From Candidatus Poribacteria bacterium (lineage in GTDB: Bacteria > Poribacteria > WGA-4E > WGA-3G), in NCBI GenBank assembly GCA_026706025.1, contig JAPOZO010000088.1:1-35668 (forward strand): a stretch of DNA of 35,668 nt, given 5' to 3'. The notes beneath the pieces were generated by a model, which was given only the letters and a program-made list of their open reading frames with translations, was not told the origin of the DNA and did not search any database. A program made the position numbers and the translations under genes. Below, piece by piece: positions 6,257-18,612 of the stretch. Positions within the stretch are counted from its first letter, which is position 1; each line of letters begins with the position of its first letter.

Positions 6257-8077
6257 TTATTCGGTTGGATAAGCATCTAAAGCGGTTTGCCACTTCGTGA
6301 GCTGCGCGACGCGTTGTTCGGGGTCCGTGGTCATTTCAAGCGGTCTGCCGCGCGTATCAACAACCAAACCAACAACACCGCCTATCGCCTCGGTTTCAAT
6401 GGCGTTCCCGTTCCCCGCCCCGAGATCAAACCGACGTGCAGGTTGGAGCTTCAATGTCGCTTTCTCGCCCAATGGCAGCGGGTAGCGACGGAGTTCACCG
6501 AACTGAATGTCTTCACGTGTTGACGGTATATCTTCACCACTGATTTCGATAGTCAGACACTCATCGCCAGTATGCCCTTTACCGATCGGAGCAATAGCGG
6601 TGCCTAAGTGGATAAGACAGTCGCGTTCAAAGACGTGTGTAGCCGCTTCAGGATTGACTTGCGCAAGCACACCGAGTTGGGGCATCATGAAGATGCTGTC
6701 AACGGCGAGATGGGTTATGCCTTCGGGTTGAAACGCATCTATCATCATGAGCATCGCCTGCTGCCGACGCGGCGCGTGCGATAAAACGCCACCGCTTCCG
6801 ATGAGCATATCCAAAGCAAGCATATTCACAAGCGTCTGACCACTTTCCGCCTGATCAAAGGCTTCAGAGATCGTGCGCTGTTGCTGCACACCCCGCAACT
6901 CAACTGCGAGTTGTTTGTGCTGTTCAAAGGCAAGTCTGAGCGCCTCACGCGCAATCGCTTGCTCCAGGATTAACTCTTGCAAGGTTTGCGGAATCGTTGT
7001 CGGACGAATCATCTTGTTCTTGACACGATTACGCAGATCCCCCACTTCAATATCGAACGGTACCCATCGGAGCACGTTTTCCAAACCGGCTTCAGCGAGG
7101 ACATTTGAGACACTGTAACTCATACCGAGGTTCGCACTCACGGTCCGGTTAAAGATCGGTGCTGCCTCTTTATTTTTAAAGACAGAAAAGACATCCGTCG
7201 TTGCACCGCCGATGTCTACACCAACCACTTCAATATCCTGTTGTGCAGAGACCGTCTGGATGATTTCACCCACTGCCCCAGGGGTCGGCATAATCGGGGC
7301 ATCTGTCCAGTCGATGAGTCGTTTGTAACCCGGGGCGTGCGCCATGACATGCTCAAGGAACTGTTCCTGAATTTTATGGCGTGTCGGCATCAGGTTTTCA
7401 CGCTCTAAAACGGGACGCAGGTTATCTACCGTCTGGAGTGCCATGACATCTTGCAAGCGTTCCTGAATCGATTCTCGTGCGTCTATATTCCCAGCATAGA
7501 TAAGAGGGAGTTCATAAGCGATACCGAGCCGTGGTCTCGGACGTGCAGCGGCGATAATCTCAGCCAATTCAACGACGTGTGAAGTCGTCCCACCGTCAAC
7601 CCCGCCAGAGAGGAGTAACATATCAGGTCGGAGATGTCGAATGCGCTCGATTTTTTCATGTGGAAGCCGTTTGTCGTTAGAAGCGATGACATCCATGACG
7701 ATCGCACCAGCACCGAGCGCAGCACGTTCCGCGCTTTCGCCTGTCAGGTTACGGACAACACCCGCTACCATCATCTGCAACCCACCTCCAGCACTACTCG
7801 TCGAAATATAGACATCAACACCGGTGTCCCCGCTTTGTGGTTTTATGATAACACCGTTATCAAGGAGTTTGCGTCCAGCAAGTTCCTCAACTTCGGTGAT
7901 GGCGTTAATAACGCCTGCGGTTACATCTTCGACAGGTGCCTCAACAGTAGTAGGTGCTTCACCACGCACGATGAGTTGATACTCGTCGCCGCGTTTTTCA
8001 ATCAGAATCGCCTTGGTAGTTGTGCTGCCACAATCCGTGGCAAGAATAGAGCGGATATCGCCCGCTGGTTTGTTCAT
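6257..8077 (-). CDS. MutL/GlmL-family ASKHA ATPase (glutamate-mutase accessory-type protein)
   Basis: 606 residues from the ATG at 8077 (AGGAG 10 bases upstream); an open frame back to 8224 adds only low-complexity sequence. The N-terminal phosphate loop ATDCGSTTTKAILIEK (13-28) and a second one, VVGVDIGGATTDVFSVF, near the middle mark an ASKHA-fold ATPase. GSGGVLSHAPRR fits the adenosine motif. The family is typified by MutL/GlmL, found beside B12-dependent glutamate mutase and proposed to act as a mutase reactivase or chaperone. No mutase subunit (mutS, mutE) or B12 gene is in this window, so its client is unknown. It follows the FGE-domain gene after a 193-base gap, and may be transcribed with it. 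Confidence 0.85.
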   Translation of the reverse strand: MNKPAGDIRSILATDCGSTTTKAILIEKRGDEYQLIVRGEAPTTVEAPVEDVTAGVINAITEVEELAGRKLLDNGVIIKPQSGDTGVDVYISTSSAGGGLQMMVAGVVRNLTGESAERAALGAGAIVMDVIASNDKRLPHEKIERIRHLRPDMLLLSGGVDGGTTSHVVELAEIIAAARPRPRLGIAYELPLIYAGNIDARESIQERLQDVMALQTVDNLRPVLERENLMPTRHKIQEQFLEHVMAHAPGYKRLIDWTDAPIMPTPGAVGEIIQTVSAQQDIEVVGVDIGGATTDVFSVFKNKEAAPIFNRTVSANLGMSYSVSNVLAEAGLENVLRWVPFDIEVGDLRNRVKNKMIRPTTIPQTLQELILEQAIAREALRLAFEQHKQLAVELRGVQQQRTISEAFDQAESGQTLVNMLALDMLIGSGGVLSHAPRRQQAMLMMIDAFQPEGITHLAVDSIFMMPQLGVLAQVNPEAATHVFERDCLIHLGTAIAPIGKGHTGDECLTIEISGEDIPSTREDIQFGELRRYPLPLGEKATLKLQPARRFDLGAGNGNAIETEAIGGVVGLVVDTRGRPLEMTTDPEQRVAQLTKWQTALDAYPTE

Positions 8078-8270
8078 ATAATTCGTCTCCTCTTTCCGAT
8101 TTTCCCCAGACCCAGTAGGGTTTTTGCTTGGTGTCTTTGATAGGGGTATTTGATAGGGTGTTTCTGCGTATTTCTGCGTATTCTTCACGGTTTGCAACCG
8201 CACCGGACTTCCGGCTTCCATCAACTATCAGGACGCATAGGTTTCTTCTGTCCGTCTGACAGCTGATAAA

Positions 8271-14848: not shown

Positions 14849-17278
14849 ATGAAAACACACCTCCTTGAAAACCTCCTCGGTTGTAATATAGAAGATACAC
14901 TTGCTGCGATTTCAGCAGATACTACTGCACTTGAAAATCTCCTTTCCACACTTCCCGCAGACACACTTGAACACCAACTCACACCGCAATGGGTAGTCCT
15001 CGCTGCTGGTAAAGGCACGCGGATTGATCCCACGGGACGTTTGAGCAAAACGTTGGACATCACCTTCGGGGAACAGAACACGCTCCAACACGCACGACGT
15101 TACTTGCCCGGCAGTCGTTCTGATATTGTTGTCATCAATTCACAGATGGCATCGCGTATTGAGAACAACGAATCTGCAGAGCAGTTGTTAGGTCCCAATG
15201 CTACTTTTTGTATTCAAGAAGAGATGAACGGCACGGGTGGCGCGCTGCAAGCAGCTCTTCCAGCACTTCGAGACTCCGACGCTGAGTGGATCGGGGTAGC
15301 GTTCGGTGACGAACCCTTTTTGGAGCGCGAGATTTTCGCACAGACACTGCTCTCACATTTTCTCTCCGGTGCGGATGTTACACTCTGCGGCAAAATCCCT
15401 GAAACTGTTGAGGATAAGGGCGGACTTTTCTTTGATGCTGAAGGCAGACTCACACGGACCAAAGAGTGGTACGATATGACAGAAGCCGAAAAACAGGAGA
15501 TGTGGGACCGCTGGCACAATGGTGAAGCATATACTAACACAGGTATCACACTTATTCGGAAAAGTGTGTTGTTAGAACGGATACATCGGTTGGAACCCCA
15601 CGCAAATCGGAACGACGAACTCCACCACGTCGATCTCATTCGCCACTGTTACGAAGACGGGCTGAAAACGAACGCCTTTATCTATCGCGGCGAAGTATTG
15701 TCTGGCGTGAACCGCTGGTCGAATGTTTTATCGGGCGAAGCAGCACTGTATGCACAGGTTCGGGAATCCCTGGCGCGAAAAGGCGTTCGCGTCGATCCGA
15801 ATGCCCAGATAACATTGGCAGGTGATGATATTGAGATCGGTACGGCGTGCTATTTTATCGGTAGGGTGCATCTCGGTGAACAGGTGCAGGTTGGCGACTA
15901 TTGTAGACTTGAAAACGTTACGTTGCTGGGTGCAACAAGGGTAGGAAACGCTGTCGGATTGCAGGATGTCTCCGCGAACGATACGACCTTTGAACCAAAC
16001 CCACTCCCAGAAACACTGGCAGCACCCGTACGTGGACTCGCGACAGGCAGCACGATCAAAAACGCTACATTCGATGCAGCGTGCATCGGCACGGATGTTC
16101 AACTTTCGGGAATTGTGGCGCGCGGAACCGTAATTCCGTCCAGTGTCGTTCTGACGGATCGGACGCTCGGTGTCCCACCCGCACAAGTCCCGCCTGCTGT
16201 ACCAAAGCCACTATTCGATCAGATTGTGCCGTCGGATTACATTCCTGGGGTCTTCACTTTCGGAGAAAAGAAGGAATTACCGGATTGGGAGAACCTCCGG
16301 CAACACGTACAATCGCATAGTGCTGCGGAACTCATTCCGCGTGCGACGCGCGATCCGCAGTTACAGCAGACGACTTGCGATGCTGTAAAGACCCTCTTGG
16401 ATCTGCGACGCGCAAACTCTGATTACCTCATTGAATCGCTCACACCAGAAGAACTCTGGGGAAGTATCTTCGAGTTGGTAGCACTCCATACCGGCAATCC
16501 GAATCCATATCATCATGATAAACTCAAAGCGCGGCAGACTGCGCTCGACCTACTGCCGGAGTTTTGGGATAATAATTGGCTGACACGTCTAAAACTGGTT
16601 GTCGCTGGAAATATCATCGACTATAGCAGCGAGCGAGTTGTTAAAAAATTAAAAGCGAATCCCGATTACTTTTCTGAAGCTCTACGCGCAGCGGTCGAAA
16701 CCCGTTTCACTATTGACTGTTACGAAGCATTCCGCGAAAAAGTGCTTGAAGGGACACCGCAGCACATTCTCTGGCTCGCTGATAATGACGGAGAAGTAAT
16801 ATTTGACATCGCTTTCATTCAGGATCTTGTCGTGTCTGGACACCAGATCTCTGTTGTTGGGAAAGCAGACAACGCCAGTAACGACGCGACGGTGGCAGAC
16901 CTGCATACAATCATCAACTATCCACAATTTCAGGAACTTCAGGCAGCCCTTCGCGACGGTACGCTCCAACTGCTGTCGTCAGGTGCGGTAACGATCGGGA
17001 GCAATCTCTATCAGGCGACTCCAGAATTCATTAACGCCCTGTCAGGAGCAGATCTTGTTATTTCAAAAGGACAGGGGAATTTCTATACCACACCGGGATG
17101 GGGAAAGGATACCTTCTATCTTCTACTTTCCAAGGGTTTGACAGCAGAACGGAGTACCGGTGTTGTGGCGGATCGGAATTTGCCGATTGATGGGATGATT
17201 TTGGCTTATGTGCCAGCAGGCACAAAACGGGACGCGCCTTTGTTGGATATTTGTCGGGAATGGACGACGGAAAGCTAA
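14849..17278 (+). CDS. Fusion: GlmU-like nucleotidyltransferase, left-handed beta-helix, DUF89 (ARMT1-like) phosphatase
   Basis: 809 residues in one uninterrupted frame. Residues about 47-300 are a sugar nucleotidyltransferase: VVLAAGKGTRID (49-60), Lys67 in LSKTL, QEEMNGTGGALQAALP and FGDEP. Residues about 310-440 contain hexapeptide-like turns (IGTACYFIGRVHLGEQVQVG) typical of a left-handed beta-helix. Residues about 460-805 are a DUF89 domain: VVAGNIIDYSS, WLADNDGEVIFD with the metal-site pair Asp645-Asn646, Asn678-Asp679 in SNDATVAD, and DLVISKGQGNF. DUF89 proteins are metal-dependent 'damage-control' phosphatases acting on phosphometabolites or sugar phosphates. The fusion suggests coupled activation and removal of a sugar-1-phosphate or a by-product; that is inference. 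AAGGAC precedes the ATG. Its stop is 11 bases from the convergent CapK gene. Confidence 0.85.
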   Translation: MKTHLLENLLGCNIEDTLAAISADTTALENLLSTLPADTLEHQLTPQWVVLAAGKGTRIDPTGRLSKTLDITFGEQNTLQHARRYLPGSRSDIVVINSQMASRIENNESAEQLLGPNATFCIQEEMNGTGGALQAALPALRDSDAEWIGVAFGDEPFLEREIFAQTLLSHFLSGADVTLCGKIPETVEDKGGLFFDAEGRLTRTKEWYDMTEAEKQEMWDRWHNGEAYTNTGITLIRKSVLLERIHRLEPHANRNDELHHVDLIRHCYEDGLKTNAFIYRGEVLSGVNRWSNVLSGEAALYAQVRESLARKGVRVDPNAQITLAGDDIEIGTACYFIGRVHLGEQVQVGDYCRLENVTLLGATRVGNAVGLQDVSANDTTFEPNPLPETLAAPVRGLATGSTIKNATFDAACIGTDVQLSGIVARGTVIPSSVVLTDRTLGVPPAQVPPAVPKPLFDQIVPSDYIPGVFTFGEKKELPDWENLRQHVQSHSAAELIPRATRDPQLQQTTCDAVKTLLDLRRANSDYLIESLTPEELWGSIFELVALHTGNPNPYHHDKLKARQTALDLLPEFWDNNWLTRLKLVVAGNIIDYSSERVVKKLKANPDYFSEALRAAVETRFTIDCYEAFREKVLEGTPQHILWLADNDGEVIFDIAFIQDLVVSGHQISVVGKADNASNDATVADLHTIINYPQFQELQAALRDGTLQLLSSGAVTIGSNLYQATPEFINALSGADLVISKGQGNFYTTPGWGKDTFYLLLSKGLTAERSTGVVADRNLPIDGMILAYVPAGTKRDAPLLDICREWTTES

Positions 17279-17289
17279 AGTCCGCGTAC

Positions 17290-18612
17290 CTATACTTTTG
17301 AAATCGTGTATTCCCGCTTTCCTGACTCAGGAATCGGAATATAGTCTACAAATTTCACAGTGACAACGACATCTCCACCGAGTGCCTTCTGGATACACTG
17401 AACGAGGTAACGGCGTGTTGACTCTGTCCACTGCCTATTAACAACCACTTTTAAGACACAATGCTTAAGGGTCTCTTGGATGATCTGGAACTGATTCACG
17501 CCTTTGACCCCGTAGAACTGTCGTGTAAAATAGCCACCGTGTATCAATGTCCCAATTCTCGTACGGAAAGTCGCAGTGGTGCGTCCAAGCAATTCAGCCA
17601 AAACAGGTAACGCATTACCGCAGGGGCACGGCTCGGCTGAAAGCATACCGACATCTCCAATCCGATACCGAATAAACGGCATAGCATAATTATTCAGCTG
17701 CGTGACGAGAATCTCTCCGGGTTCAGTGTATGGATCGGGACTGTCTATTTCAAGGTAAATATCGCGACAGTTGATATGCATCCTGCCTTCTGCGCATTCC
17801 ATTCCGATTAACCCGACTTCCCGTCCACCATAGCGATTATAGACTTTCGCCTTGAAAACAATCTCGGCTAAGGCGCGGTAATGTGGGTGTAACATCTCAG
17901 CGGAAGATATAATGCCCTTCAAATTCCATCGCGGGATCAAGCCATTATCTGAAAGAAACGCAGCAAATTGGTAAAGTGATGACGGATAAGCGAGGATGGT
18001 CTGAGGGGATGATTGATTCATCTGTTCAAACGCCGCCAGCATCGCTTTTTCTGTAAGGTGAAACCCGTTGAGCCAATACTGATTCCGCCAGAAGTTGCTG
18101 ACCCGATGCTTCCAGTGTCCATCGTCTTCCAAATCTACCGGAGCACCCCAGATAATCAATTGCGGTTGCCCGAAATTCCATCCCGCCCATCGATCGAAAT
18201 AGTAGACACTCAAGTTTCGTTGATTCCAATAGTTCCTATCCTGATAAAACTTCAGTGGCGTACCTGTTGAGCCACCCGTAGCGTTCTCAATCCGTTGCTC
18301 CGCTGTGAAGACTGTAGAACAGAGTCTCTCGAATTGTTCCCGGATATCCTGTTTCTCAAGTGGCGGAATTTGCGATATATCAAGCGTTTCCGTCTTGAGT
18401 AATTCACGGTAATAAGGTGTTGTCTGGTAGGCGTGCTGGAGGAGTCTTTTCAAACGCTCTGCCTGAAATGTTTCAATAGTTTCGCGCGGCGCATCTAATA
18501 ACGCAGCGGTTTGCGACAGTTGTGAATGGTAGTGTACACCTTTACGATAAATGTTATAGGCGTGCCATCCTGCCTTTGAAATTAACGTTTTAATAGCGCG
18601 ATGAATAGGCAT
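17290..18612 (-). CDS. PaaK/CapK-family adenylate-forming enzyme
   Basis: 440 residues. It carries the AMP-binding loop NATGGSTGTPLKFYQD (about 110-125), YNRYGGREVGLIGMEC near the middle and IRYRIGDVGML (about 315), typical of phenylacetate-CoA ligase and CapK proteins, followed by a CPCG cysteine pair and a small C-terminal domain. CapK-type members occur in polysaccharide or secondary-metabolite clusters and their substrates are mostly unknown; PaaK activates phenylacetate to its CoA ester. No phenylacetate degradation gene is nearby. It is transcribed alone, convergent with the nucleotidyltransferase-DUF89 fusion. The upstream region 18613-19040 is AT-rich and holds three phased repeats. 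Confidence 0.8.
   Translation of the reverse strand: MPIHRAIKTLISKAGWHAYNIYRKGVHYHSQLSQTAALLDAPRETIETFQAERLKRLLQHAYQTTPYYRELLKTETLDISQIPPLEKQDIREQFERLCSTVFTAEQRIENATGGSTGTPLKFYQDRNYWNQRNLSVYYFDRWAGWNFGQPQLIIWGAPVDLEDDGHWKHRVSNFWRNQYWLNGFHLTEKAMLAAFEQMNQSSPQTILAYPSSLYQFAAFLSDNGLIPRWNLKGIISSAEMLHPHYRALAEIVFKAKVYNRYGGREVGLIGMECAEGRMHINCRDIYLEIDSPDPYTEPGEILVTQLNNYAMPFIRYRIGDVGMLSAEPCPCGNALPVLAELLGRTTATFRTRIGTLIHGGYFTRQFYGVKGVNQFQIIQETLKHCVLKVVVNRQWTESTRRYLVQCIQKALGGDVVVTVKFVDYIPIPESGKREYTISKV

Follow-up and report, generated by a model that had tools for sequence, protein, structure and literature searches.

We describe a poribacterial gene whose single product joins a GlmU-type uridylyltransferase domain to a DUF89 phosphatase domain. 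Our leading explanation, to which we assign a probability of roughly one half, is that the protein is a UDP-GlcNAc pyrophosphorylase that carries its own phosphatase, the latter acting on hexosamine phosphates as a brake or an editor. The gene lies in a 35,668-nucleotide stretch of DNA (‘the window’) from a member of the Poribacteria, a sponge-associated bacterial phylum. The two domains are fused, both active sites are intact, the acetyltransferase site of GlmU has been lost, a pathway operon surrounds the gene in relatives, and canonical GlmU is absent; from these observations we infer what reaction each half catalyses, which substrate the phosphatase takes and what the protein does in the cell. 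UDP-GlcNAc is a cell-wall building block, and the textbook bacterial route to it (GlmS, GlmM, GlmU) is an antibacterial target; for DUF89, few bacterial roles are known.

The complete gene occupies positions 14849–17278 of the forward strand, the strand of all protein features given below, and encodes 809 amino acids. A stop codon directly precedes its ATG, an AAGGA-like ribosome-binding site lies just upstream, and the frame is then open for 809 codons, as the initial annotation had it. That annotation also allowed that the fusion might be an assembly artefact, missing from related genomes. In a set of 85 species of the phylum, 83 of them in the class of the window genome (G000), the fusion is a single-copy gene with homologues in 78 of the 83, closed single-contig genomes included. 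Its absence from some genomes, such as G071 (96% complete), counts against our best explanation. Two DUF89 motif patterns, run against the contigs of 84,980 species, returned 66 relatives, all from Poribacteria; fusions with other motifs outside the phylum would be missed by such a scan. In two sister families of the phylum, the DUF89 proteins are all stand-alone. The assembly that holds the window comprises 103 contigs, a circumstance that would suit two genes having been joined by assembly or gene calling. Nevertheless, the full-length fusion recurs throughout the class and in closed single-contig genomes, and purifying selection acts on both halves (median dN/dS 0.059 and 0.078); these data rule out an artefact, the probability of which we consider negligible, and mark the fusion as genuine rather than a product of chance.

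The protein begins with a helical extension of low conservation (residues 1–44; 14849–14980; four predicted helices, mean identity 0.49), and the alignments with several order-level relatives do not begin before residues 36–39. Next comes the uridylyltransferase domain (residues 45–300; 14981–15748), recognized by its Pfam NTP_transferase match (residues 49–290, E = 3.7e-8, over the cut-off), its fold and its active-site residues. In AlphaFold models (mean pLDDT 79 with 18 sequences, 84 with 61), residues 43–352 superimpose on E. coli GlmU (b3730; PDB: 1fwy, with 2oi6 as a further structure) with a Z-score of 26.9 and an rmsd of 3.3 over 292 aligned residues (VIA-align for 1fwy); the fold is nearer to GlmU structures (Z mostly 24–27) than to UDP-glucose enzymes (Z about 21 or less; about 21 for the UDP-glucose pyrophosphorylases).

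The likeness to GlmU extends to the active site: on alignment, 12 of the 13 E. coli uridylyltransferase residues that we examined are identical in the fusion. Gly14, Gly16, Arg18, Lys25, Gln76 and Gly81 correspond to Gly54, Gly56, Arg58, Lys67 (15047–15049), Gln123 and Gly128, while Thr82, Asp105, Gly140, Glu154, Asn169 and Asn227 correspond to Thr129, Asp154 (15308–15310), Gly192, Glu206 (15464–15466), Asn230 (15536–15538) and Asn288 (15710–15712); Asp154 and Asn288 align with Mg ligands, Glu206 and Asn230 with sugar contacts. The sole mismatch is Tyr103, replaced by Phe152. Nearly all of these residues are invariant among about 68 homologues, Gly56 and Arg58 being strictly so, and 67 of 69 homologues retain both active sites of the protein unchanged. 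The nucleotide-binding loop that contains the counterparts of Gly14, Gly16 and Arg18 is present, as initially annotated, but it reads AAGKGTR and spans residues 52–58 (15002–15022), rather than GAGKGTR at 51–58. Against our best explanation, the fusion, at about 20–25% identity to GlmU, scores only 89.5 bits with the GlmU equivalog model TIGR01173, far under its cut-off of 366.85; with TIGR03992, the model for archaeal-type bifunctional GlmU, it scores 42.4 bits, also under the cut-off (292). We regard the N-terminal half as a probable and well-supported UDP-GlcNAc uridylyltransferase, which would convert GlcNAc-1-P and UTP to UDP-GlcNAc and PPi, as in GlmU.

GlmU is a bifunctional UDP-GlcNAc pyrophosphorylase and GlcN-1-P acetyltransferase, whereas the fusion has no acetyltransferase site and carries DUF89 instead. 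The hexapeptide helix of the initial annotation proved to be weak: residues 301–445 (15749–16183) contain short strands modelled at low confidence, the Hexapep match (12.7 bits) is below the Pfam cut-off of 27, and pLDDT at residues ~350–440 is only 40–60, even with 61 aligned sequences. This region also has the highest dN/dS among the domains (0.111). None of nine GlmU acetyltransferase residues (Arg333, Lys351, His363, Tyr366, Asn377, Asn386, Lys392, Ser405 and Ala423) is found in the window protein, and His363, Tyr366, Asn377, Lys392 and Ser405 are kept in no homologue compared; an active acetyltransferase in this segment is unsupported, because its catalytic residues are missing. Residues 301–445 are best read as a remnant of the GlmU beta-helix: the acetyltransferase half would have decayed, leaving a vestigial spacer, and a metal-dependent DUF89 phosphatase would have taken its place.

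The phosphatase half comprises a helical N-terminal part (residues 446–535; 16184–16453; predicted helices) and a DUF89/ARMT1-like core (residues 536–800; 16454–17248). Pfam PF01937 matches residues 539–745 at E = 1.5e-31 and 110.2 bits (gathering cut-off 25), so that both ends of the protein fall, over the Pfam cut-offs, into the families to which they had initially been ascribed. In the AlphaFold models, residues 469–804 align with PH1575, a stand-alone archaeal DUF89 phosphatase (PDB: 2g8l), with Z-scores of 28.5–29.7 and an rmsd of 2.6 over 280 residues; the match to another solved DUF89 structure, 1xfi, gives Z-scores of 26.9–28.4. All three motifs of PH1575 (Asp-Asn, Asn-Asp and KGQGN) are present: the metal and catalytic motif DNDGE (residues 645–649; 16781–16795; kept in 67 of 69 homologues), Asn678-Asp679 (16880–16885) and KGQGN (residues 740–744; 17066–17080). 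The pairs Asp645-Asn646 and Asn678-Asp679 are located exactly where they were first reported, and Asp645, Asn646, Asn678, Asp679 and Lys740 are each conserved in 67 or 68 of the 69 homologues. Two Asp residues are essential in the DUF89 domain of PANK4 (PMC9352595). We predict with considerable confidence that the DUF89 half is an active phosphatase.

Several features set the fused domain apart from stand-alone DUF89 proteins. It has DNDGE where the latter have DNAGE or DNVGE; its third motif continues as KGQGN-x-(F/Y)-T, with Glu replacing the Phe/Tyr in three of the four stand-alone sequences compared; and a CxxC near the domain start, present in the stand-alone poribacterial proteins L055, L056 and L057, is absent from the fusions aligned (this CxxC is a trait of the stand-alone poribacterial members and does not define the DUF89 family as a whole). 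Taken together, these differences suggest that the fused domain has a substrate of its own, and we put the odds that it is a hexosamine phosphate at about even.

Bearing in mind that characterised DUF89 enzymes use fructose-1-phosphate and oxidised 4'-phosphopantetheine (PMC8669784), the uridylyltransferase assignment could be right while the DUF89 half is a general damage-control phosphatase, with fructose-1-phosphate or other glycating sugar phosphates as its substrates, for instance, and merely carried along. Nearly all of the fusion-bearing genomes tested have no DUF89 domain other than the fused one, which may therefore serve the whole cell; moreover, G051, in which the fused DUF89 has decayed, possesses a separate, intact one. 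On the other side are the distinct surroundings of the active site (DNDGE; KGQGN-x-(F/Y)-T) and the tie to a single pathway that is created by the fusion itself and by an operon with GlmM, YvcK and NagB (see below). We view a general role as unlikely, though it is the strongest of the competing explanations. The exceptions to motif conservation are G051 and G052, in which the uridylyltransferase motifs are kept, but the phosphatase motifs are gone and the helical part is shorter by about 65 residues; the phosphatase site is therefore dispensable in these two genomes, which counts against our best explanation. By locus, fusion homologues that have lost the DUF89 catalytic motifs and about 65 residues lie at L038:3227–5347 and L039:6960–9035, and the genome of L039 also carries an intact stand-alone DUF89 at L055:4440–5300.

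Evidence that the fusion belongs to UDP-GlcNAc supply was derived from the operon in deep-branching relatives, to which informative gene context is confined. In G054 and G057 (family f5) the gene order is archaeal-type GlmM, YvcK/GlmR, fusion, NagB; G050 of the same family has YvcK and NagB flanking the fusion, with GlmM not adjacent; in G058, too, YvcK and NagB are the flanking genes; and G052 has GlmM, YvcK, fusion, NagA. Those operon members that were scored exceed their NCBIfam cut-offs. The earlier interpretation is partly supported: its domain calls and its connection of the phosphatase with nucleotide-sugar supply stand, and the GlmU-type site and this GlcN/UDP-GlcNAc pathway context make that connection specific; the phosphatase may correct, brake or supply. 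GlmM and YvcK are adjacent in most other genomes and in G000, where the pair is on another contig (C43; GlmM 496 bits, cut-off 439); the fusion is not beside the pair in G000's own family, which counts against our best explanation. Nor do the window's own neighbours set a role, an idea that we rejected: the flanking genes (AlbA/Schlafen-like, PaaK/CapK-like and sulfatase) point to no pathway. The gene for a PaaK/CapK-like adenylate-forming enzyme (17290–18612, reverse strand; assigned by NCBIfam; neighbour cluster 3) is convergent with the fusion and ends 11 bases past its stop codon; 14 genomes from family f1 have this cluster beside the fusion, and the enzyme is probably outside the system.

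Canonical GlmU exceeds its cut-off in none of the 85 genomes. GlmS does so in one of 19 genomes (G044) and NagB in the other 18, and we suggest that poribacterial NagB probably works as an aminating enzyme; run backwards in this way, it would supply the first step of the pathway. MurA is found in all 19, and UDP-GlcNAc is therefore needed. We identified no enzyme that would acetylate GlcN-1-P or GlcN-6-P, which weighs against our best explanation. G044 is, of the 19, the sole genome with GlmS and lacks NagB; its GlmS gene follows the adjoining GlmM–YvcK pair.

Other candidate makers of UDP-GlcNAc also count against our best explanation. GlmR/YvcK acts in UDP-GlcNAc synthesis (PMC6171935, PMC10128056), and Listeria GlmR is an accessory uridylyltransferase that makes UDP-GlcNAc from GlcNAc-1-P and UTP (PMC10128056); it shares the pathway and, in relatives, the operon of the fusion, but it is a separate gene of another family, without a phosphatase domain. 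G000 itself has seven nucleotidyltransferases besides the fusion: GlgC, RmlA-like, HddC/mannose-like, a kinase–GalU fusion, GalU-like, MocA-like and L163. The last (L163:1480–2883, contig C50) is a GlmU-like protein of archaeal type, even though the phylum is bacterial; it has the full nucleotidyltransferase and beta-helix layout, is not fused to DUF89, scores 179.5 bits with TIGR03992 and could serve the same pathway, as the chief rival to the fusion. Its family is present in roughly 60 of the 85 genomes, with a distribution that is patchy relative to the fusion, several genomes having only one of the two. That the fusion is the sole GlmU-like protein everywhere is thus ruled out by the L163 family in G000 and many other genomes; it is true of some genomes only, G044 being one.

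These proteins raise the prospect that the N-terminal half of the fusion activates a different sugar-1-phosphate, with UDP-GlcNAc being provided by the L163 family or by GlmR/YvcK. However, L163 is below its own cut-off and lacks the equivalents of GlmU Glu154, Asn169 and Asn227, whereas the fusion carries the GlmU signature and, in relatives, resides in the GlmM–NagB operon. Furthermore, the L163 family is absent from 12 fusion-bearing genomes, each at least 91% complete (G036, G038, G039, G041, G043, G044, G045, G046, G050, G073, G074 and G077), with G044 assembled as a single contig. We therefore rate a different sugar-1-phosphate as improbable, somewhat more so than a general damage-control role.

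Returning to a pathway-specific phosphatase, we envisage that residues ~450–800 dephosphorylate a hexosamine phosphate belonging to this pathway, whether GlcN-1-P, GlcNAc-1-P or a 6-phosphate. In doing so, they might restrain UDP-GlcNAc synthesis, as a brake or overflow valve, or might act as an editor that removes un-acetylated GlcN-1-P. A narrower version, which we advance tentatively and hold to be rather less likely than the general proposal, places opposing activities on the committed intermediate for cell-wall precursors in one polypeptide: the uridylyltransferase would use GlcNAc-1-P, and DUF89 would destroy either GlcNAc-1-P or un-acetylated GlcN-1-P. A further alternative is that the phosphatase performs an obligate step, in which a precursor that is bisphosphorylated or 6-phosphorylated loses a phosphate and becomes usable by the nucleotidyltransferase. 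Phosphatase–nucleotidyltransferase fusions and pairs do exist in heptose and keto-deoxy-sugar pathways, and the two domains of the poribacterial protein diverge together (distance correlation 0.89). Yet the neighbouring GlmM–NagB set yields hexosamine-1-phosphate without a phosphatase step, and the nucleotidyltransferase persists in G051 and G052, where the phosphatase site has been lost; an obligate step seems very unlikely.

Both domain families are already known. To our knowledge, a hexosamine-phosphate role for DUF89 is not, and it would be new if true. A literature search of incomplete coverage found no earlier report of the fusion, of a phosphatase replacing the GlmU acetyltransferase, or of phylum-wide rewiring. 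The whole phylum appears to have rebuilt the UDP-GlcNAc pathway, with NagB for GlmS, an archaeal-type GlmM, and a GlmU half in which a phosphatase stands in for the acetyltransferase. DUF89 is thereby assigned to a definite pathway and to a class of substrates that can be tested, and opposing activities, if real, would constitute a new way of editing UDP-GlcNAc synthesis or of setting its flux. The closest analogy is PANK4, a pantothenate kinase–DUF89 fusion in which DUF89 is likewise joined to a biosynthetic enzyme and its phosphatase activity suppresses CoA synthesis, limiting the output of the pathway (PMC9352595); the poribacterial fusion would be a second case of DUF89 policing a biosynthetic pathway from inside one of its enzymes. 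Partner and pathway are unrelated, however: Pfam finds no pantothenate kinase domain in our protein, and the kinase domain of PANK4 is inactive in amniotes, whereas the partner site in the fusion is intact.

We also noted other proteins of related composition. The kinase–GalU fusion of G000 (L162:439–2364, contig C84; 642 amino acids) combines a GHMP-type sugar kinase (galactokinase/mevalonate-kinase-like) with a GalU-like nucleotidyltransferase, an uncommon arrangement. In G052 (L059:1–2265, contig C297), a galactokinase-like kinase is joined to a GlmU-like nucleotidyltransferase, with NagB near on the same contig. Finally, positions 6257–8224 of the window (reverse strand) encode a 655-amino-acid GlmL-family protein of the methylaspartate mutase accessory/ornithine degradation Or-4 type.
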